64,000 nucleotides of DNA, from positions 1,736,001-1,800,000 of the forward strand of contig NZ_CCBB010000003.1 in the NCBI RefSeq assembly GCF_000613185.1. Direction: 5' to 3'. This document shows positions 12,030-59,119 of this stretch, piece after piece; positions within the stretch are counted from its first letter, which is position 1, and every line of letters starts with the position of its first letter. Source of the DNA: Mycolicibacterium cosmeticum (GTDB taxonomy: Bacteria > Actinomycetota > Actinomycetes > Mycobacteriales > Mycobacteriaceae). Made by a program: the position numbers and the translations under genes. The notes under the pieces were generated by a model. It was not told the origin of the DNA. It did no database searches and was given only the letters and a program-made list of their open reading frames with translations.

Positions 12030-12294
12030 CGGGGGCGGCAACGTCGCGGTGTAGCATGGGGATGTTTTAGGCCACAGGCCTTGACACTTTGGTGCGGTTC
12101 GCGCGTGTGAAGCGCGCACCGTTCCTGCGCGTCACGCATCGTCCGAGGGATCGGGCGGTCTTCGGTAGTGGCTGCCGGGAATTCTGACTCCCGGCCGCTT
12201 CGATCGACGGCCGTAGCCGCATCCAGGACGGGAATCTGTTGCGCTCGACGCGCGAAACAGTTGAATACCCGACAGAGAGGCTGTACGGACACCT
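12030..12294 (+). promoter_or_regulatory. Structured leader of gpsI
   Basis: This 265-bp gap holds no gene. A -10-like TAGCAT lies at 12053-12058, without a convincing -35. Three hairpins can be drawn: GGTGCG/CGCACC (12091-12096 with 12115-12120), GCCGGGA/TCCCGGC (12174-12180 with 12189-12195), and TGTTGCGC with GCGC-G-AACA (12237-12259). In E. coli the pnp leader is the target of RNase III and PNPase autoregulation; a similar role here is only an inference. Confidence 0.4.
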
Positions 12295-50905: not shown

Positions 50906-51658
50906 CTAAATGACGAATCCTCCGTCGATGTTCCACGTGACGCCCGTGACATAGCTGGCCTCCGGTGAGGCGAGATAAGCCACGGCGCTGGCGATGTCGC
51001 TGGGCTGACCGTAGCGGCCGACCGCGATGAACGGTCGCACCTGGTCGGAGAACCCGCCTTCTTCGGGGTTCATATCGGTGGCCACCGGGCCGGGCTGAAT
51101 CGTGTTCACCGTGATGCCGCGCGGCCCGAGTTCCCGGACCAGCCCGCGCGTCAGGCCCGCGACCGCCGCCTTGGTGAGCGCGTACACCGACAGTCCAGCC
51201 ATGGGCGCTCGATCGGCATTCACGCTGCCGATCGTGATGATCCGGCCGCCCTCGTCCAGGTGTGGAATCGCTCGCTGGATCGCCGCGAATACAGCGCGTA
51301 CGTTCACCGCGATGAGCCGGTCGAACTCCTCGAGCGGAAATTCCTCGATCGGGCCGGCGGTCGCAATGCCGGCATTGTTGACCAGAATGTCGATGCCACC
51401 CAGTCGCGAGACGGTCTGGTCGACGGCCGCATTGACCGCGTCGGCGTCGGCGCTGTCGGCCTGGATGGCCACCACCTTCGCGCCGGTCGCGTCGAGTTCG
51501 GCGGCCAGCGCCTCGGCCGGCTCCGGGGAGGAGTTGTACGTGAAAGCGACGGACGCGCCGTCGGCGGCCAACCGCCGGACGATCTCGGCGCCGATGCCGC
51601 GCGACCCGCCGGTGACGAGGGCGCGTTTGCCGGACAGTGGTGCAGTTGTGGTGGTCAT
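50906..51658 (-). CDS. Short-chain dehydrogenase/reductase (FabG-like)
   Basis: The 250-residue classical SDR has LVTGGSRGIGAEIVRRLA, NNAGIATAG, Ser in TIGSVNADRAP, and YALTKAAVAGL (YxxxK). ATG 51658 (MTTTTAPLSGKRAL) is chosen over the in-frame ATG 54 bp upstream because the extra residues are not SDR-like. The substrate is unknown. It opens the accessory block between recX and the glutamate transporter. Confidence 0.85.
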   Translation of the reverse strand: MTTTTAPLSGKRALVTGGSRGIGAEIVRRLAADGASVAFTYNSSPEPAEALAAELDATGAKVVAIQADSADADAVNAAVDQTVSRLGGIDILVNNAGIATAGPIEEFPLEEFDRLIAVNVRAVFAAIQRAIPHLDEGGRIITIGSVNADRAPMAGLSVYALTKAAVAGLTRGLVRELGPRGITVNTIQPGPVATDMNPEEGGFSDQVRPFIAVGRYGQPSDIASAVAYLASPEASYVTGVTWNIDGGFVI

Positions 51659-51730
51659 GACGGAGTCAAGCGGCGCGAGGTCGGGAAGATTCCTTGCTGT
51701 GACCGGCGTCACTCGAGCGGCCTGTGGTGC

Positions 51731-52015
51731 CTATCGCGCCGCGGAATCGGCGGAGTGCGGTCCGAACTCGGTGGTCACCACCGCGACGGTGTCGGCGGGG
51801 AAGCCGCCACACCGAGCGTGCTCGCGGATCGCCTCCTCGCTGGGCGCCTCGTGAAGGCAGTAGATCTTGTCGCCGGCGACGTAGCTGGTGATCCACCGGT
51901 AGGGCACCCCGAGGGTTTCGACAACACCGTTGGATGTGGCGGCGATCTCTGCCAGTTGCGATTCGGTCAGCTCACTGGCGCCTGGGATCTCCCGCTCGAT
52001 GATGTAGCGCTTCAT
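51731..52015 (-). CDS. DUF4242 family protein
   Basis: The 94-residue protein (MKRYIIEREIPGASELTESQLAEIAATSNGVVETLG, then WITSYVAGDKIYCLHEAPSEEAIREHARCGGFPAD) matches the small ferredoxin-fold DUF4242 family, some members of which bind nickel. GGAGG lies 4 bp before ATG 52015. It is upstream of the SDR on the same strand by 72 bp and may share its transcript. Confidence 0.8.
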   Translation of the reverse strand: MKRYIIEREIPGASELTESQLAEIAATSNGVVETLGVPYRWITSYVAGDKIYCLHEAPSEEAIREHARCGGFPADTVAVVTTEFGPHSADSAAR

Positions 52016-52170
52016 TGGTCCTCCATGACTGGGTCGACGGTCCGCGACGGTCGTCGCGTGCCACAAACAATGTCGGCGGCCGTTCTCGGAATGCTGACCA
52101 AATCCTGAAATCCGCAGCTCAGAGTCGCATGTGGCGGCGCTTCGCGCCGGTTTCGCGCTGTTCCCGGGCC

Positions 52171-52215
52171 GTTTCACAACTGCTTCAACTTCAGGCAACG
52201 CCATCGGCGCACGGT
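52171..52215 (+). promoter_or_regulatory. Shared intergenic motif, copy 1
   Basis: GTTTCACA (52171-52178) and CATCGGCGCAC (52202-52212), with CAACTT between them, recur with the same 31-bp offset at 57927. TTCACA and TTCAAC here are also 11 bp apart, reminiscent of SARP direct repeats. The copy lies in the 252-bp gap between the divergent DUF4242 and PGRS genes; nothing else recognisable is in this gap. Confidence 0.5.
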
Positions 52216-52267
52216 TGTACCGTCCGGCGGTCGTCGGGCAACGGCCGGATGAGGAACGGAGACGACA

Positions 52268-53548
52268 ATGCTGGTGGAGACGAGGGCGGTCGGGCGCGTG
52301 GGCGCGCTCGCGATCGCTTTGGGCGTGGGATGTGCGATCGCGCCGGCGTCGTTGGCGCCACCGGATTCCCAACCACGCACCGCAGGCCACGCTGAGGTTC
52401 TGTCCCTCGGCCCCGCGGTGGTGCGACTGGCGTCGGCAGAGACAATTCCGCCGGCCATGCAGCCTGCGTCACCCTGGGTGTTGTCGGCTGTGGAACCGGT
52501 TGCAGGACAACAGTTATCGGAAGTTCTCGACGGCCCCGTCGACGCCTCCGCAGCTGGGATGGCCAACGCGCGGGCCCGCGTGGTCGGGCACACCGCGATG
52601 GTGTTCGGGCCCGCGACAACCGCCGCGGTGACACCAGGGGCCGGCGCCAACCATGCCGGACGGGCGACGACTGCCTTGCAGCCGACCTTTGGTGGCAGTC
52701 ACCTCGGCGACATCATCGGCATCTTCATCGGCAACGGTGACGAGCCCGGCGAGAACGGCGGCTTGTTGATCGGTAACGGTGCCGATGGCGGTCCGGGTCA
52801 GAACGGGGGACGCGGTGGACTGCTCTTCGGGAACGGCGGCAGGGGCGGTGATGCCACGGCGACCCAGGGGGCCGGAAATGGTGGCAACGCCGGGATGTTC
52901 GGGAACGGAGGCGACGGGGGTGCCGGCGCCAACGCGACATCGGCCGATGGCGGTATGGGTCACCCCGGCGGTGCCGGCGGTAATGGCGGCGTCATCGCGG
53001 GTAACGGAGGCGACGGCGGGCGCGGCGGCAACGCCACCAACTCCGGGACCGCTGTGGGCGGCTCCGGCGGGCGTGGCGGCAAGGCCGGGACGCTGTTCGG
53101 GGTGGGCGGTCGCGGTGGAGACGGTGGCAGCGGCGCGAGCAGCCAAGGGGAGGGCGTCGGCGGTAGCGGCGGGCCAGGCGGCGACGGCGGATTCTCGGGA
53201 ACCGGGGGCGACGGCGGTAATGGCGGTAGGGGTGCCGGCGTCACCGGCAGCGGCGGCTATGGCGGTTCGGGCGCGAACTCGCGAGTCGGCCAGGGCGGTG
53301 CGGGAGGCAAAGGCGGCTCGGCGTCGTCGACCACAGGCGCGGCGAAGGCGGGCGGGGGCGGGCACGGTGGCAACGGAGGCACGTTCAGCACCGGTGGACG
53401 GGGCGGTGACGGCGGAAACGCGACAACCACGACCGGTACCGCGAAGGGCGGCGACGGTGGCGACGGCGGCAGGCCGAACGGTACCGGCGGCGCCGGAGGC
53501 CAGGGCAACAACGGCAACGGCAACAACGGCGCCGACGGCGACGCCTGA
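52268..53548 (+). CDS. Secreted PGRS-like glycine-rich repeat protein without PE domain
   Basis: The 426-residue protein has an N-terminal hydrophobic segment (residues about 8-30, VGALAIALGVGCAIAPASLA) likely to be a signal peptide or anchor. A non-repetitive 110-residue region follows. From about residue 145 to the end it is a PGRS-type array of GNGG, GGDGG and GGRGG turns (for example GGLLIGNGADGGPGQNGG). There is no PE domain with its Pro-Glu start. PGRS arrays form glycine-rich sandwich or coil structures on the cell surface; the role of this one is unknown. A strong terminator follows. Confidence 0.8.
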   Translation: MLVETRAVGRVGALAIALGVGCAIAPASLAPPDSQPRTAGHAEVLSLGPAVVRLASAETIPPAMQPASPWVLSAVEPVAGQQLSEVLDGPVDASAAGMANARARVVGHTAMVFGPATTAAVTPGAGANHAGRATTALQPTFGGSHLGDIIGIFIGNGDEPGENGGLLIGNGADGGPGQNGGRGGLLFGNGGRGGDATATQGAGNGGNAGMFGNGGDGGAGANATSADGGMGHPGGAGGNGGVIAGNGGDGGRGGNATNSGTAVGGSGGRGGKAGTLFGVGGRGGDGGSGASSQGEGVGGSGGPGGDGGFSGTGGDGGNGGRGAGVTGSGGYGGSGANSRVGQGGAGGKGGSASSTTGAAKAGGGGHGGNGGTFSTGGRGGDGGNATTTTGTAKGGDGGDGGRPNGTGGAGGQGNNGNGNNGADGDA

Positions 53549-53556
53549 TCTTCGGG

Positions 53557-53592
53557 GGCGCCCGGCAATGATTGCGGCGATTGCCGGGCGCC
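53557..53592. terminator. Terminator after the PGRS-like gene
   Basis: GGCGCCCGGCAAT (53557-53569) and ATTGCCGGGCGCC (53580-53592) form a perfect 13-bp stem with a 10-nt loop. It separates the PGRS-like gene from the regulator gene and supports the regulator start at 53623, beyond it. Confidence 0.85.
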
Positions 53593-53622
53593 GAGCCGAA
53601 ACTTGGGGGACGCTGTACGGCG

Positions 53623-56544
53623 ATGACGGCGGAGTTTCGATTGCTCGGCGAGGTCGAGGTCGTGGTCGATGGCCGGGGCCTCGATGCAGGCCACGCGCGA
53701 CAGCGGTGCGTGCTGGTGGCGTTGCTCGTCGATGTCAATCGTCCGGTATCGGCCGACACGCTCATCGATCGGGTGTGGTCCGACGAGCCGCCCCAAAAGG
53801 CGCGTAATGCGTTGGCTGCTTATATCTCTCGGCTGCGGCAGCTCGTCGCCGGCCACGACGGGGCGCGGATTGTCCGCGGCCCCGGCGGTTACATGCTCCA
53901 AGTCGATGCGCAGACCGTGGATCTCCATCGATTTCGGGACATGGTGTCGCAGGCCAGGGCGGCGCGGAACCGAGCCGACGCGGCCGCCATGTTCGACGCG
54001 GCGCTGCAGTTGTGGCGCGGTGCGCCGTTCGCCACGCTCGACACCCCGTGGACAAATGAGGTGCGGACTTCACTTGAGGCCGAGCGGCTTTCGGCGGTCC
54101 TCGACCGCAATGACGCGGCGCTCGACGCCGGCCGCCACGGTGAGTTGCTCAACGACCTCGCAGCGACGCTGCACGCGCATCCACTCGACGAACGGATCGC
54201 CGGTCAGCTCATGTTGGCGCAGTACCGGAGCGGTAGGCAAGCCGCCGCCCTGGACACCTATCGCGGGATGCGCGAACGGCTGGTCCAGGAGCTGGGTGTC
54301 GACCCGAGCCCGGCGTTGCAGGCTGTGCAGCAGCAGATCCTGGACGGCGATCCGATGCGTCCGGTCGAGCCGGCCGTACCGCCGGCCACCGCGGATCTCG
54401 GCGTCACGCAGTCTGCGGCGGCCGAACCGGTGGTACCTCGCCGGAGGACGCGACTCATCGGCCGAGACGGTGATGTGCTTCGGGTGATTGCCGGGTTGCG
54501 CGACGGACCCGTCGTCACCCTCACCGGCGTCGGAGGTGTCGGCAAGACCCGGCTCGCCTTCGAGACGGCAGCCCGCGCGCAGGACAACTTCGTTGACGGC
54601 GTCTGGGTCTGCGAGTTGGCGCCGCTGAGCGATGGCTCGGCGATCGGGCGTGCCGTGGCGGCCGCCGTGCGGGTGCGGGCCGGCTACGGCCAGGATGTCG
54701 ACGATGCCGTGGTCGAACATCTCCGTCCGCTGGACTTACTTCTGGTCGCCGACAACTGCGAGCACGTGCTTGCGCCGGCGGCCGAACTGATCGACCGGAT
54801 CATCCACGAATGCCCCGGGGTGCGGGTACTGGCCACCAGCAGAGAACCGCTCGGTGTCGAAGGTGAGCGCATCGTGCCGGTGCATCCCTTGTCCGAGGAG
54901 CATGCCGCGGAGCTGTTCGTCGATCGGGCCAGGGCCAGCCGGCCGGACTTCAACCCCGACCGAGAACCGGTGGGCGCGGTCGCCGAAATATGCCGACGGC
55001 TCGACGGGGTACCGCTGGCCATCGAGTTGGCTGCGGCGCGGGTGCGTGCGATGTCGAGCTTGGATATCGCCCGCCGCCTGGATCGACTCCGCTTGCTCAG
55101 CGGCGGCAGTCGGGGTACCCACCCACGTCAGCACAGCGTCGCGGCGACCATCGACTGGTCCTACCGCCTGCTGTCCGACGCCGAACAGAAGATGTTTGCG
55201 CGATTGTCGGTGTTCGCCGGCGGGTTCGACCTCGACGCGCTCCATGGCGTGTGCGCCGCTGACGGCATCACCGACGACGACGCCTTCGACATGCTCATGA
55301 GCTTGGTCGACAAGTCGATGGTCGTGGTACGCAGTGGCCCTGCCGGTACCCGGTACGACGTCCTCACGACGCTGGGTGCCTACGGACTGCAACGTCTGCG
55401 GGACAATGGAACCGTCGATGACGCTGCGTCGCGCCACGCACATTACTTCGTCGAGCTGGTCGAGCGCGCCTCGGTGGGTATGCGTGGGCCCGACGAGGCG
55501 GCCTGGGTGCAGCGGCTACTGCCGAGGGCCGGAACGACCTTTGTCGCACCGGATTTCGACAATCTTCGCACTGCATTCGAATTCGCCATGGCGCGTCACG
55601 ACATCGACCTTGCGCTTCGATTGGTCACGTCACTGCCCGAGATTCACCTTCGTATCGGATATGTCCCGATGGACTGGGTGGAACGGGCAGTCCAGGCCGC
55701 CGACCGCGACCACCCCCTCTTCCCGGCAGCTGTCGGCACTGTCGCTCGCGGCTACCAGGTGCTCGGGGACTTCGGCCACGCACGGGCGATCATCTCGCTG
55801 GCGGAGGGCCGCGAGCCGGCACCCGGTGTCTCCTACCTCGCTCATCCGGCGGATGTGCTCGCCGATGTCGTGATGAACGAAGGCGACGCGATCACGAGCA
55901 CCGCCTACTTCGAGGAGCTGTTCCACGAGTCGCAAGAGGACACCGATCCCCTGAGATTGGTCCTGGCGGGGGAGCGAATCACGCTCGGGCATCAGGAGAT
56001 GGGGACGCTGAGTGCTGCCTTACCGACCGCTGAGGAGGCGATGCGGATCGCTGAGGCCACGGGAAATCCGACGGCGCGGTCACTGGCCGGATCCGCGCTG
56101 GGCCGTGCCCTGTCCGAGACGAACCCGGACCGGGCGCTGAAGATCCTGGCCGAAGCCAGAGGCCTGGCAGCCGCGGTCGAGAACAACTGGCTGATCGCCA
56201 TGGCCATGATGGAGTCGGCCACCATCAACACCGTGCACGGCGACGTGACCGCGGCGGCACGAGACTTCCTCGGCACGCTGGATCTGTTCGTTGTCGGTGG
56301 ACCGGGTCGGGTGATGCCTCTACAGTGGGAAAACCTGCGACGTGTGACGCGATTTCTTTGCCGAGTGGGTGCCGCCCGGGAAGCGGCGGCGCTACACCGC
56401 GCGGTCGTTGCGTCTGGCCGGGCGTCACCGCTGAGCGCCGCCCAGCTGGCCGCCATGAACGGTGCAGACAGCGTCGGGATGAGCGACGACGACATCGTCG
56501 ACTACACGCGGACGGCGCTCCACCGCATCGTTGAGGCCGACTAG
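53623..56544 (+). CDS. AfsR/SARP-type STAND transcriptional regulator
   Basis: The 973-residue protein joins an OmpR-like winged helix (1-95, FRLLGEVEVVVDGRGL ... LIDRVWSDEPPQKARNALAAYISRLRQL), a BTAD bacterial activation domain (96-245), a STAND/NB-ARC ATPase with Walker A TGVGGVGKTRLA near 303 and Walker B LLLVADNCEHVL near 372, and a long TPR-like helical C-terminus. Such proteins bind DNA as SARP activators and switch by nucleotide and ligand binding. ATG 53623 is chosen; the upstream in-frame ATG lies in the terminator. Its targets are probably the neighbouring genes. The last 4 bp overlap the convergent secreted-protein gene. Confidence 0.88.
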   Translation: MTAEFRLLGEVEVVVDGRGLDAGHARQRCVLVALLVDVNRPVSADTLIDRVWSDEPPQKARNALAAYISRLRQLVAGHDGARIVRGPGGYMLQVDAQTVDLHRFRDMVSQARAARNRADAAAMFDAALQLWRGAPFATLDTPWTNEVRTSLEAERLSAVLDRNDAALDAGRHGELLNDLAATLHAHPLDERIAGQLMLAQYRSGRQAAALDTYRGMRERLVQELGVDPSPALQAVQQQILDGDPMRPVEPAVPPATADLGVTQSAAAEPVVPRRRTRLIGRDGDVLRVIAGLRDGPVVTLTGVGGVGKTRLAFETAARAQDNFVDGVWVCELAPLSDGSAIGRAVAAAVRVRAGYGQDVDDAVVEHLRPLDLLLVADNCEHVLAPAAELIDRIIHECPGVRVLATSREPLGVEGERIVPVHPLSEEHAAELFVDRARASRPDFNPDREPVGAVAEICRRLDGVPLAIELAAARVRAMSSLDIARRLDRLRLLSGGSRGTHPRQHSVAATIDWSYRLLSDAEQKMFARLSVFAGGFDLDALHGVCAADGITDDDAFDMLMSLVDKSMVVVRSGPAGTRYDVLTTLGAYGLQRLRDNGTVDDAASRHAHYFVELVERASVGMRGPDEAAWVQRLLPRAGTTFVAPDFDNLRTAFEFAMARHDIDLALRLVTSLPEIHLRIGYVPMDWVERAVQAADRDHPLFPAAVGTVARGYQVLGDFGHARAIISLAEGREPAPGVSYLAHPADVLADVVMNEGDAITSTAYFEELFHESQEDTDPLRLVLAGERITLGHQEMGTLSAALPTAEEAMRIAEATGNPTARSLAGSALGRALSETNPDRALKILAEARGLAAAVENNWLIAMAMMESATINTVHGDVTAAARDFLGTLDLFVVGGPGRVMPLQWENLRRVTRFLCRVGAAREAAALHRAVVASGRASPLSAAQLAAMNGADSVGMSDDDIVDYTRTALHRIVEAD

Positions 56545-57125
56545 GAGCAACACCCGTCGCAGATGCCGGGCGCCCCGAAGTCCCTGACTATCTCCTGGCT
56601 GATCTGAGTTCTCGCCCCGCCGTCAGCATCGACGAATGTCGCGGCGGCATAGATTTCGTCGAAATCCTCGCCGGTGACCCTGTCGGGGTCGTACCACTTG
56701 GTTCCGTCGGCGTCGAGTTCATATGCATATACCGACAGCTCACGTTGGTACTCCAGTCCGCCAGGACCCGCCCTGAGAAAGCCACCGGGATCCGAATGCC
56801 GGTGCGGGACTTGAAGGTAGGCAATGCTGGTGTCGCCTTCGTGGCCGTTGCCGTCATCGTCTTGGAGGTAGTACTTCATGTGGCCCGGTTTTGCCGGATT
56901 GTCATCGATGTGGATGAGGTATCCCTCGGCGTCGGCCTGGGACATCGGGAAGACGCCCCTGATCGTCACGCGGTAGTAGCCGGGCTTCCCGAAATCCGGG
57001 CACAAGAAAAGGGTTGCGCCGCTCGGCTTGGGGGCGGCATCCGCCGGTGCCATAACCGGCAGGGCCAGTGCGACAAGGGCGGTGGCGGCTGCGCCGAGCG
57101 TCGTCAGTCGGTTGCTCGCGTTCAT
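56541..57125 (-). CDS. Secreted protein with C-terminal CDGCC tail, paralogue A
   Basis: This 194-residue protein has a signal peptide (1-31, cleavage near ADA-AP) and no family I recognise. It aligns along its length with the neighbour at 57159: LFLCPDFGKPGYYRVTIRGVFPM, DAEGYLIHIDD, LRAGPGGLEYQREL, DEIYAAATFVDADGGAR and the end GICDGCCS. Four cysteines, one near residue 42 and the CDGCC tail, are shared. It follows the paralogue by 33 bp on the same strand, so the two form an operon. Confidence 0.75.
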   Translation of the reverse strand: MNASNRLTTLGAAATALVALALPVMAPADAAPKPSGATLFLCPDFGKPGYYRVTIRGVFPMSQADAEGYLIHIDDNPAKPGHMKYYLQDDDGNGHEGDTSIAYLQVPHRHSDPGGFLRAGPGGLEYQRELSVYAYELDADGTKWYDPDRVTGEDFDEIYAAATFVDADGGARTQISQEIVRDFGAPGICDGCCS

Positions 57126-57158
57126 GGTGGTGTGCTCCTGGTCTGGTGCGGGTTCGAA

Positions 57159-57740
57159 TCAGTTGCAGCAGCCGTCGCAGACGCCTGCGACCTCGAAGCT
57201 GCGGGTGATCACCTGTGTGACGGCGCGACGTTCGCCGCCGTCACCGTCGCGGAACGTAGCGACGGCGTAGACCTCGTCGACGTCGTCGTCGGATCCGGGC
57301 TGCTTGTGGTCCTCGTTGAAGTTCGGCCGCGGAACCACCATTTCGCGGCGGTACTCCAGGCCTCCCGGACCCGCCTGGAGGTAGCCCTCGCTCGTGGTCT
57401 GCGTCGTCGGGTAGAAGCCGTAGCCGATGTCGTGATCAGAATGGTCGCCGGTGTCGTCGGCCTTGAGTTGCACCCGGAGACCACCGGGGCCAGGGCCACC
57501 GGGATGATTTCCGTCGTTCATGTGGATGAGGTAACCGGCCGCGTCGGGCTGCTGCATCGGGTAGACACCCTTCACCGTGATCCGGTAGCTGCTGGGGTTC
57601 CCGAGATCCTGGCAGACGTACAACATCGCACCGTCGGTCTGCGCCGGCGCGGCGGTGGCGACACCGGCGGTCAAACCGACGGCCGTTGCCAACGCGGCCG
57701 CGCCGCCCACCACCGATACGAATTGTTTGATTCCACTCAT
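57159..57740 (-). CDS. Secreted protein with C-terminal CDGCC tail, paralogue B
   Basis: The 193-residue protein starts at ATG 57740 (MSGIKQFVSVVGG). It has a signal peptide (1-31) and the same layout as the downstream copy: LYVCQDLGNPSSYRITVKGVYPM, DAAGYLIHMND, LQAGPGGLEYRREM, DEVYAVATFRDGDGGERR and a C-terminal GVCDGCCN. A Pro/Gly-rich insert (GNHPGGPGPGGL) distinguishes it. The function is unknown. The Cys tail could bind metal or form disulfides with the N-terminal Cys after export. Confidence 0.75.
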   Translation of the reverse strand: MSGIKQFVSVVGGAAALATAVGLTAGVATAAPAQTDGAMLYVCQDLGNPSSYRITVKGVYPMQQPDAAGYLIHMNDGNHPGGPGPGGLRVQLKADDTGDHSDHDIGYGFYPTTQTTSEGYLQAGPGGLEYRREMVVPRPNFNEDHKQPGSDDDVDEVYAVATFRDGDGGERRAVTQVITRSFEVAGVCDGCCN

Positions 57741-57926
57741 CGCTGATCCCCTCAGACTGTGGGCATGCGCCCTCGTTGTTGACGGCATGACCCTGCCGGT
57801 ACGTCGTTGCTCACCGCTGAAGCAGTCGTGAAAGCCGCAGATCATCGGCCCGGACTCACTTCTGGCCACCCGAAACGGTGCCGCCCTGGAATGTCCGGGT
57901 CGCGCCAAAATCACGCTGACCTCGAT

Positions 57927-57971
57927 GTTTCACAGTGGTGCAACTTTTCGCTAAGGACATCGGCCCACTGT
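57927..57971 (+). promoter_or_regulatory. Shared intergenic motif, copy 2
   Basis: GTTTCACA (57927-57934) and CATCGGCCCAC (57958-57968), again with CAACTT between, match copy 1 at 52171 with an identical 31-bp offset. It lies 52 bp before the methyltransferase ATG, in the 238-bp gap to the divergent secreted-protein operon. The rest of this gap shows nothing recognisable. Confidence 0.5.
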
Positions 57972-57978
57972 CGGGTGC

Positions 57979-58854
57979 ATGAGTGCGACAGAACCGATCC
58001 CGACCGTTGCCGACGACGACCGGCGGCTCAAGGCCAAGCACCGCGCGTTGTGGGCGTCGGGTGACTACCCGGCGATCGCTGCTGAGCTCATAGCCGAACT
58101 GGGACCGCAACTGGTCCATGCCTGCGACATCCGCCCCGGCCATCGTGTGCTCGATGTCGCGGCGGGCACGGGTAACGCAGCCATTCCCGCCGCCGCGGCG
58201 GGAGGCATCGTCACCGCGAGCGATCTGACACCGGAGTTGTTCGAGGCCGGGCGCAGGATCGCGACGCTGCGGAATGTCGACCTCGAGTGGGTGGAGGCGG
58301 ACGCCGAAGCGATGCCGTTCGCGGACAATAGCTTTGACGTGGTCATGTCCTGTGTCGGGGTGATGTTCGCACCGCGCCACCGAGCGGTGGCCGATGAGCT
58401 GATCCGGGTGTGCAGGCATGGCGGAACGATCGGGATGATCAACTGGACGCCGGACGGGTTCATCGGTGCGATGCTCTCGACGATCGGACCGTACGCGCCG
58501 ACGGCGTCGCCGGCCGCGGCCGCGCCCCCGATGTGGGGCGACGAACAGCATGTGCGCAATCTGTTCGGAGACAGGCTCATCGACCTGAAGACACGGCGGC
58601 AGGTGGTTCTGATGGACCGGAGCGGTACCCCGCTGGATTTTCGCGAGTACTGGAAGCGCAATTACGGACCGATCATCGCGGCCTATCGGTTCAACCATGA
58701 CAAACCAGAAAGCGTCGCCGAATTGGACACGCAACTCCTGGATCTGCTCGAGCGGTGGAATCGGAGTTCCGTGTCGGGGCGGGTCGTGTATCCGGCGGAA
58801 TATCTACTGATCACCGCGGTCAAGCGAGAAGGGAAGGAAGGCAATCATGTCTGA
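57979..58854 (+). CDS. Class I SAM-dependent methyltransferase
   Basis: The 291-residue protein has the SAM motif VLDVAAGTGNAAIPAA near residue 57, acidic post-II DLTPELFEAGR, and AEAMPFADNSFDVVMSCVGVMFAPRH, the pattern of UbiE/ArsM-like methyltransferases. The C-terminus is longer than the core fold. The substrate is unknown. It overlaps the small membrane protein gene by 8 bp. Confidence 0.83.
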   Translation: MSATEPIPTVADDDRRLKAKHRALWASGDYPAIAAELIAELGPQLVHACDIRPGHRVLDVAAGTGNAAIPAAAAGGIVTASDLTPELFEAGRRIATLRNVDLEWVEADAEAMPFADNSFDVVMSCVGVMFAPRHRAVADELIRVCRHGGTIGMINWTPDGFIGAMLSTIGPYAPTASPAAAAPPMWGDEQHVRNLFGDRLIDLKTRRQVVLMDRSGTPLDFREYWKRNYGPIIAAYRFNHDKPESVAELDTQLLDLLERWNRSSVSGRVVYPAEYLLITAVKREGKEGNHV

Positions 58855-59119
58855 TCCGAACAAGGGCGACCGCGGCGAGCGCCGGCCCCGTCCCGGCCGC
58901 TGGCTGGGATTCACCCCGTATCAGCAGATGTTGGTGCTCCCGCCGATCCTGTTCCTGGCAGGTACGCTGACCATCCCAGGCGTTCGTCCAGAGCTCTCCG
59001 TTGCCGGGGGAGCCCTGTTGCTGGCACTGGTGCTCGTCGGTTTGCTCTGGCCAGGTCCGGCCGGGCGTCGCAAGCGACGGCCGGGCGGGGAAGAACCCGA
59101 TGACTCCGATCAACGCTGA
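58847..59119 (+). CDS. Small two-span membrane protein
   Basis: The 90-residue protein has a charged N-terminus, two membrane spans (about MLVLPPILFLAGTLTIPG, 28-45, and GGALLLALVLVGLLWPGP, 54-71) and a basic then acidic tail. I do not recognise a family. ATG 58847 lies within the end of the methyltransferase gene, so translation is coupled. It is convergent with gluD; the 34-bp gap holds nothing clear. Confidence 0.65.
   Translation: MSDPNKGDRGERRPRPGRWLGFTPYQQMLVLPPILFLAGTLTIPGVRPELSVAGGALLLALVLVGLLWPGPAGRRKRRPGGEEPDDSDQR

Follow-up and report, generated by a model that had tools for sequence, protein, structure and literature searches.

Between recX and gluD in Mycolicibacterium cosmeticum lies a block of eight genes, at positions 50906-59119 of the window, by which we mean the whole 64 kb stretch analysed (G000:C3:1736001-1800000 of the 6.46 Mb source genome, G000). 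One gene encodes a 973-aa regulator, here called REG. The others encode a short-chain dehydrogenase/reductase (SDR), a small SCO4226-like protein, a PGRS-type protein, two paralogous secreted-type proteins with a CDGCC end (CDG1 and CDG2), a methyltransferase (MT) and a 90-aa membrane-type open reading frame (ORF). All eight ORFs named in a first-pass annotation of this DNA, including the 973-aa regulator, the two CDGCC paralogues and the methyltransferase, are present where it had placed them. On sequence comparison we consider it likely that the block is a small regulon around REG, a putative SARP-type activator that would control four promoters. Most of the gene set recurs in other genomes, and the four promoters match a profile that is tied to REG loci.

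REG and the genes that recur with it

Judged from its domains, REG most likely combines a SARP-type activator with a STAND-like NTPase and a helical region for sensing. Its N-terminus has a winged helix (Trans_reg_C, 30.8 bits, cut-off 26.2) and then a BTAD domain (134 bits, cut-off 22.1). In the NTPase region AAA_22 (18.5 bits) and AAA_16 (16.9 bits) both score below their cut-offs, and a Walker A motif was read in the sequence; the NCBIfam AfsR model NF053617 aligns to residues 4-586, the NTPase region included. In a tree the window REG groups with those of Mycobacterium sp. ST-F2 and G348 (Shimodaira-Hasegawa-like approximate likelihood ratio support 100) and next with that of G291 (99); this clade lies outside the nicT locus yet is nested among nicT-locus REGs. 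At least one of glnA4, nicT, cbiM and cbiO occurs in the locus of 41 of the 70 REG rows. Gene names in these neighbourhoods were mostly read from sequence; family models applied to them placed one NicT and one ArsR above the cut-offs, and one CbiM was recognisable below its own.

The first-pass annotation had taken co-occurrence across genomes as support for a system, and the REG, CDGCC, PGRS, SCO4226-like and MT genes do recur together elsewhere. CDGCC genes were found in 10 of 148 genomes of the genus with a single query and in 19 of 396 with an alignment query; close REG relatives (E <= 1e-250) occur in at least 63 of the 396, a lower bound because only a few candidates per genome were scored. 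At least 16 of the 19 CDGCC genomes also carry REG (Fisher test 2e-11, computed ignoring kinship; related genomes inflate such counts and tests), the CDGCC genomes in which REG was not found being G013, G070 (73% complete) and G411. Measured by coordinates, REG and CDGCC genes are at most 3 kb apart in 12 of the 19: convergent, as in the window, in seven (G000, G220, G348, G248, G293, G388 and G224, the last with 2.8 kb between), divergent in two (G079, G187) and in tandem in three (G033, G144, G391). For REG and CDGCC, then, the independent scatter that would have counted against a system was not what we found.

The closest match is ST-F2 (L139, genome G220), where SCO4226-like, PGRS, REG, CDG1 and CDG2 genes stand in the window order and orientation, at another chromosomal site and with MT not adjoining. 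G348 (L221) has the same five, an additional called ORF separating CDG1 from REG. In M. stellerae (L047), a metagenome-assembled genome (L052) and Mycobacteriaceae bacterium 1482268.1 (L142), a CDG2-CDG1-REG-MT series sits within an ArsR-nicT/cbi locus, and L142 has a third CDGCC gene ahead of REG. The block looks like a real unit, beyond a chance gathering of genes. Neither the SDR nor the small membrane ORF was seen in the recurring set of other genomes, and both may be co-transcribed passengers.

The promoter profile

The promoter element came to light when the two divergent intergenic regions of the window were aligned with ST-F2, and a first scan yielded the pattern TCGTGAAATNCGCAGNTCA. 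At up to three mismatches, 34 loci selected for REG (606,865 bp) gave 30 matches, 25 of them intergenic, spread over 23 of the loci; 24 MT/nicT-type loci without REG (426,523 bp) gave none, nor did reversed sequence. A second set of 36 loci (609,398 bp), three of them without REG and one a repeat of ST-F2 that contributes two matches, gave 32 matches in 22 loci, three inside a DMGDH gene, and none when reversed. The source genome has two matches in total with at most one mismatch, both inside the block, and at three mismatches 15, against 1 for the backward pattern. In a further 32 genomes, the pattern is found with no more than one mismatch in six of 16 with REG and in none of 16 without.

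Which genes follow the pattern was determined in a pool of 93 loci (65 with REG), allowing four mismatches, within 200 bp and in fixed orientation. The pattern stands upstream of MT in 21 of the 40 cases from REG loci and in 0 of 25 from other loci; for the SCO4226-like gene the figures are 4/4 and 0/4, and two further genes of REG loci also have it, sec22 (4/4) and sec38 (2/3). Small secreted-type proteins are further predicted targets near REG. Directly before REG it occurs in 0 of 75 cases, and in the other orientation in 6 of 75. No match in these loci precedes GntR (0/37), ArsR (0/37), SDR (0/39), cbiM (0/18), nicT (0/12), mtr (0/28), glnA4 (0/31), ALDH (0/38) or GATase (0/37) genes, and unlabelled genes are hit in 5 of 315 cases.

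The promoter is described by a 56-bp profile, with three heptad-like repeats 11 bp apart followed by a -10-like element. In 50 distinct upstream regions aligned, A stands at columns 15, 26 and 37 in 50, 47 and 49 of the 50, and A50 (in 44) and T54 (in 45) resemble a -10 box nAnnnT. A lag of 11 is the best of lags 4-19, with 19 next, and this also holds in columns unused for choosing sites. Trained without the window, the 56-column profile gives four scores in the 64 kb (41.1, 33.2, 23.7 and 21.2), all within the block and one before each of its transcription units; the next-best place scores -0.5. The CDG2 promoter reads GCTTTCA/TGCTTCA/TGAGCAA in its heptads. The PGRS promoter is the weakest of the four and degenerate in its upstream half, with its repeat block conserved in ST-F2. 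In two-way cross-validation, training on one locus set and testing on the other, 100 hits of at least 10 fell in 56 of 65 REG loci (1,139,521 bp), none in 28 loci without REG (484,264 bp) and none in reversed sequence.

Features of the block between recX and gluD (window coordinates; gene calls from a simple codon model; scores in bits for families)
Feature	Position	Strand	Details
SDR oxidoreductase	50906..51712 (likely start 51658)	minus	PF13561/PF00106; 18 bp behind SCO4226-like gene, same strand
SCO4226-like (DUF4242) small protein	51731..52015	minus	PF14026 79.3 bits (cut-off 28.5)
Putative REG-type promoter, SCO4226-like gene	52066..52121	minus	-10-like box 52067-52072; profile 41.1, cross-validated 40.9
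Putative REG-type promoter, PGRS gene	52161..52216	plus	-10-like box 52210-52215; profile 21.2, cross-validated 19.2
PGRS-type protein	52268..53548	plus	PF21526 32.5 bits (cut-off 27); signal-peptide-like N-terminus
REG, 973 aa	53623..56544	plus	winged helix-turn-helix (wHTH), BTAD, putative STAND-like NTPase, helical C-terminal region; separated from PGRS gene by 74 bp
CDG1, secreted-type CDGCC protein, 194 aa	56541..57125	minus	from alignment; no family match
CDG2, CDG1 paralogue, 194 aa	57159..57743	minus	first gene of CDG2-CDG1 pair
Putative REG-type promoter, CDG2-CDG1	57789..57844	minus	-10-like box 57790-57795; profile 33.2, cross-validated 32.6
Putative REG-type promoter, MT	57917..57972	plus	-10-like box 57966-57971; profile 23.7, cross-validated 24.3
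MT, class I S-adenosylmethionine-dependent methyltransferase	57979..58854	plus	PF13649/PF08241 above cut-off
Membrane-type ORF, 90 aa	58847..59119	plus	overlaps MT end; no family match

The -10-like box of MT is so near the start codon (ATG, 57979) that a leaderless mRNA is possible. High-scoring promoters of this type also occur away from the REG locus in G079, G039 and G066 (L185, L191 and L194; 52.8, 47.0 and 39.8), and these are possible distant regulon members.

Several observations weigh against the regulon reading. It was in the window that the pattern was first noticed; it was then refined on the first locus set and used to pick sites in the second. At two mismatches the pattern occurs in 12 of the 16 genomes with REG yet also in nine of the 16 without. 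Its rates before CDGCC (6/18 in REG loci, 0/3 elsewhere) and PGRS genes (8/36 in REG loci) are partial, and for 31 of the 100 profile hits the gene calls offer no start within reach, partly owing to miscalled PGRS starts such as that in the window. Nine of the 65 REG loci are profile-negative, all in one 20-row clade (support 100). Stray profile scores among pattern matches reach 17.9 inside a gene of the source genome (L162), and 16.1 (L168) and 11.5 (L170) in genomes without REG, so that a score near 20 is by itself no proof. Several members of the profile-negative clade adjoin PE/PPE genes; REG relatives beside such genes and without the promoter (L060, L071, L072, L249, L252, L255) may read another site.

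Cargo proteins, related loci and the recX-gluD site

CDG1 and CDG2 are 45% identical over the matched part and match no family in Pfam or NCBIfam at E <= 0.01; the predicted structure of CDG1 is beta-rich (predicted local distance difference test score 79). In the alignment the CDGCC proteins end in a cysteine-rich motif, and several distant relatives lack the CDGCC end. The PGRS and CDG proteins have signal-peptide-like N-termini, as read in the sequence, and the CDGCC copies of relatives satisfy a crude hydropathy rule. A Pfam search of the PGRS protein gave no PE domain, PF21526 being its sole match. The SCO4226-like protein was rejected as an equivalog of the nickel-binding SCO4226 (NCBIfam NF033706, 26.5 against a cut-off of 125 bits), and its match to the PDB entry of SCO4226 is weak (18.7 bits). 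MT relatives occur in 118 of 148 genomes at E <= 1e-60, and MT is also found without REG. A second copy, 67% identical (G000:C3:1702780-1703589), belongs to the source genome's own nicT locus (L112), which has no REG and lies about 90 kb from the block.

Elsewhere MT stands behind a LuxR-STAND regulator, in seven fetched loci (L116, L118, L121, L124, L126, L127, L131), three of them with a divergent SCO4226-like gene, and G411 (L247) adds CDGCC to a set of this type. Two sensor types therefore adjoin one kind of cargo. A LuxR-type STAND regulator beside MT, SCO4226-like, PGRS or CDGCC genes was also seen in L075 and L076, and all of these loci lack the REG-type promoter. In ST-F2 and G348 the position opposite CDG2 is taken by the methanethiol methyltransferase MddA, with a profile match 60 bp upstream in ST-F2 and 168 bp upstream in G348 (start probably short-called); in G291 the MddA gene is flanked by REG and MT, and its profile match is 38 bp upstream. 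This presence of MddA gives a hint, and only a hint, that the intracellular output may be methylation of a toxic small molecule. Thiocyanate hydrolase genes (L139:6374-8298; gamma subunit above cut-off) lie near the ST-F2 block, beside its MddA.

The first-pass annotation had described recX as followed directly, or nearly so, by gluABCD in related actinobacteria, and this arrangement is borne out. The search covered 41 genomes, and in all 15 relatives that yielded both genes at the thresholds used, recX and gluD share a contig, with 23 to 5,311 bp between them by match coordinates; the gap of 8,268 bp here exceeds them all. Nine further genomes of the same genus gave no gluD match at those thresholds. 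(The gluABCD and miaB genes, like the signal peptides, were identified by reading the sequence alone.) The site holds varied cargo in relatives (eight fetched examples); that of G019 (L145) has, by names read from sequence, an apparent cobalt-type nitrile hydratase operon and a CbtA-like membrane protein. The sole Rfam match in the window is an Actino-pnp RNA (RF01688, 59.2 bits) at 12154-12215.

The regulon model, its rivals and known systems

Under the regulon model the helical body of REG would sense a signal, and its STAND-like domain would permit NTP-driven activation. REG would then bind the three 11-bp-spaced repeats upstream of the -10 box, probably as cooperating monomers. With about 12 bp between the last repeat and the -10-like box, the repeats would cover the -35 region, where bound REG could recruit RNA polymerase. 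It would switch on four promoters: those of the SCO4226-like gene (with the SDR), of PGRS-REG, of CDG2-CDG1 and of MT (with the small membrane ORF). The SCO4226-like/PGRS and CDG2/MT pairs are divergent, so that the whole of 50906-59119 would fall under these four; the PGRS-REG promoter would give REG feedback on itself, and the SDR and membrane ORF would be reached by read-through. The predicted output is a group of secreted proteins plus a methyltransferase, and our best guess at its purpose is protection against a toxic small molecule or metal.

A possible objection is that the promoter code belongs to another regulator travelling with REG, for instance an ArsR-type one, as such genes are frequent in REG loci (37) and binding by REG is something we infer. 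Loci with ArsR and without REG, however, have 12 ArsR genes and no site near any gene; the window block and ST-F2 have sites and no ArsR gene beside REG; and three 11-bp repeats match a SARP. We regard this objection as improbable. More weight, although we still find it doubtful, goes to the idea of a nickel/cobalt homeostasis unit in which REG is metal-responsive and the metal is bound by the SCO4226-like and CDGCC proteins. It draws on the 41 of 70 REG rows noted above, on the cysteine-rich CDGCC end, and on SCO4226 of Streptomyces, which is reported to be nickel-binding and nickel-induced (PMC4186839). Yet no REG-type site precedes cbiM, nicT or ArsR genes in the pooled loci, the block's protein falls far below the SCO4226 equivalog cut-off with just a weak PDB match, several distant CDGCC relatives lack the end in question, and the window REG clade lies outside the nicT locus. 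The link is one of neighbourhood only: REG is often in a nicT/cbiMNQO locus whose transporter genes lack the promoter.

The first-pass annotation had proposed a self-contained secretion or surface-remodelling system, arguing from a ligand-sensing regulator flanked by secreted products. The regulator stands, as does recurrence with a shared promoter type; a secretion system is not supported, and a part in surface remodelling may exist. The PGRS and CDG N-termini and the small secreted-type targets near REG would suit the proposal, but Pfam and NCBIfam searches of all eight block proteins reveal neither transport apparatus or other secretion machinery nor any known enzyme of the envelope, the secreted cargo of REG cassettes varies among species, and other targets are MT, SCO4226-like and MddA-type proteins, which makes this reading quite unlikely. 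Least credible of all is an accumulation of unrelated genes at a variable recX-gluD site: cargo at this site does vary in relatives, and the SDR and membrane ORF stand outside the recurring set, but the set recurs elsewhere and four matching promoters are present.

Our preference thus remains for the REG regulon. SARP-STAND regulators are best known from Streptomyces antibiotic clusters; here a family in mycobacteria whose promoter code can be read would be tied to secreted proteins matching no known family. The profile predicts targets genome by genome, inducers could be screened through reporter genes, and the regulon would offer a first handle on CDGCC proteins and PE-less PGRS proteins. 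As a wider and rather speculative proposal, which we think somewhat unlikely, the SARP-STAND family (most members accompanied by a local cassette in which secreted proteins and methyltransferases, the latter MT or, in ST-F2, G348 and G291, MddA-type, are interchangeable under one promoter code) and the LuxR-STAND family beside the same kinds of cargo may together form an undescribed signal-triggered module against sulfur- or metal-type toxicants, pairing intracellular methylation with secreted binders and relocating in the chromosome as a unit.

Among known systems, PimR (a SARP-LAL of the pimaricin cluster of Streptomyces natalensis) resembles REG in joining a SARP DNA-binding part to a large body, ATP-binding in PimR and putatively so in REG, and in an operator of three repeats 11 bp apart. 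Two reports (PMC3367932; PMC5930380) describe SARP operators as heptads at 11-bp intervals that usually overlie the -35 region; that of PimR consists of three heptads separated by 4-bp spacers and lies clear of the -35 region. On these accounts PimR has a single target, which belongs to an antibiotic cluster, and avoids the -35 region, whereas REG has four candidate promoters, another heptad sequence and repeats ending about 12 bp ahead of the -10-like box. AfsR of Streptomyces shares the order of wHTH, BTAD and (putative in REG) NTPase, but REG was rejected as an AfsR equivalog (NF053617, 211 bits against a cut-off of 1430). EmbR of Mycobacterium tuberculosis likewise has an N-terminal OmpR/PhoB-like domain and BTAD, and (PMC9239209) differs in an FHA-domain end and kinase control where REG has a putative NTPase/helical body. 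SCO4226 shares PF14026 with the block protein, which misses its equivalog cut-off and matches its structure weakly, and PE_PGRS proteins share PGRS repeats with the block's PGRS protein, which has instead a signal-peptide-like start and no PE match.

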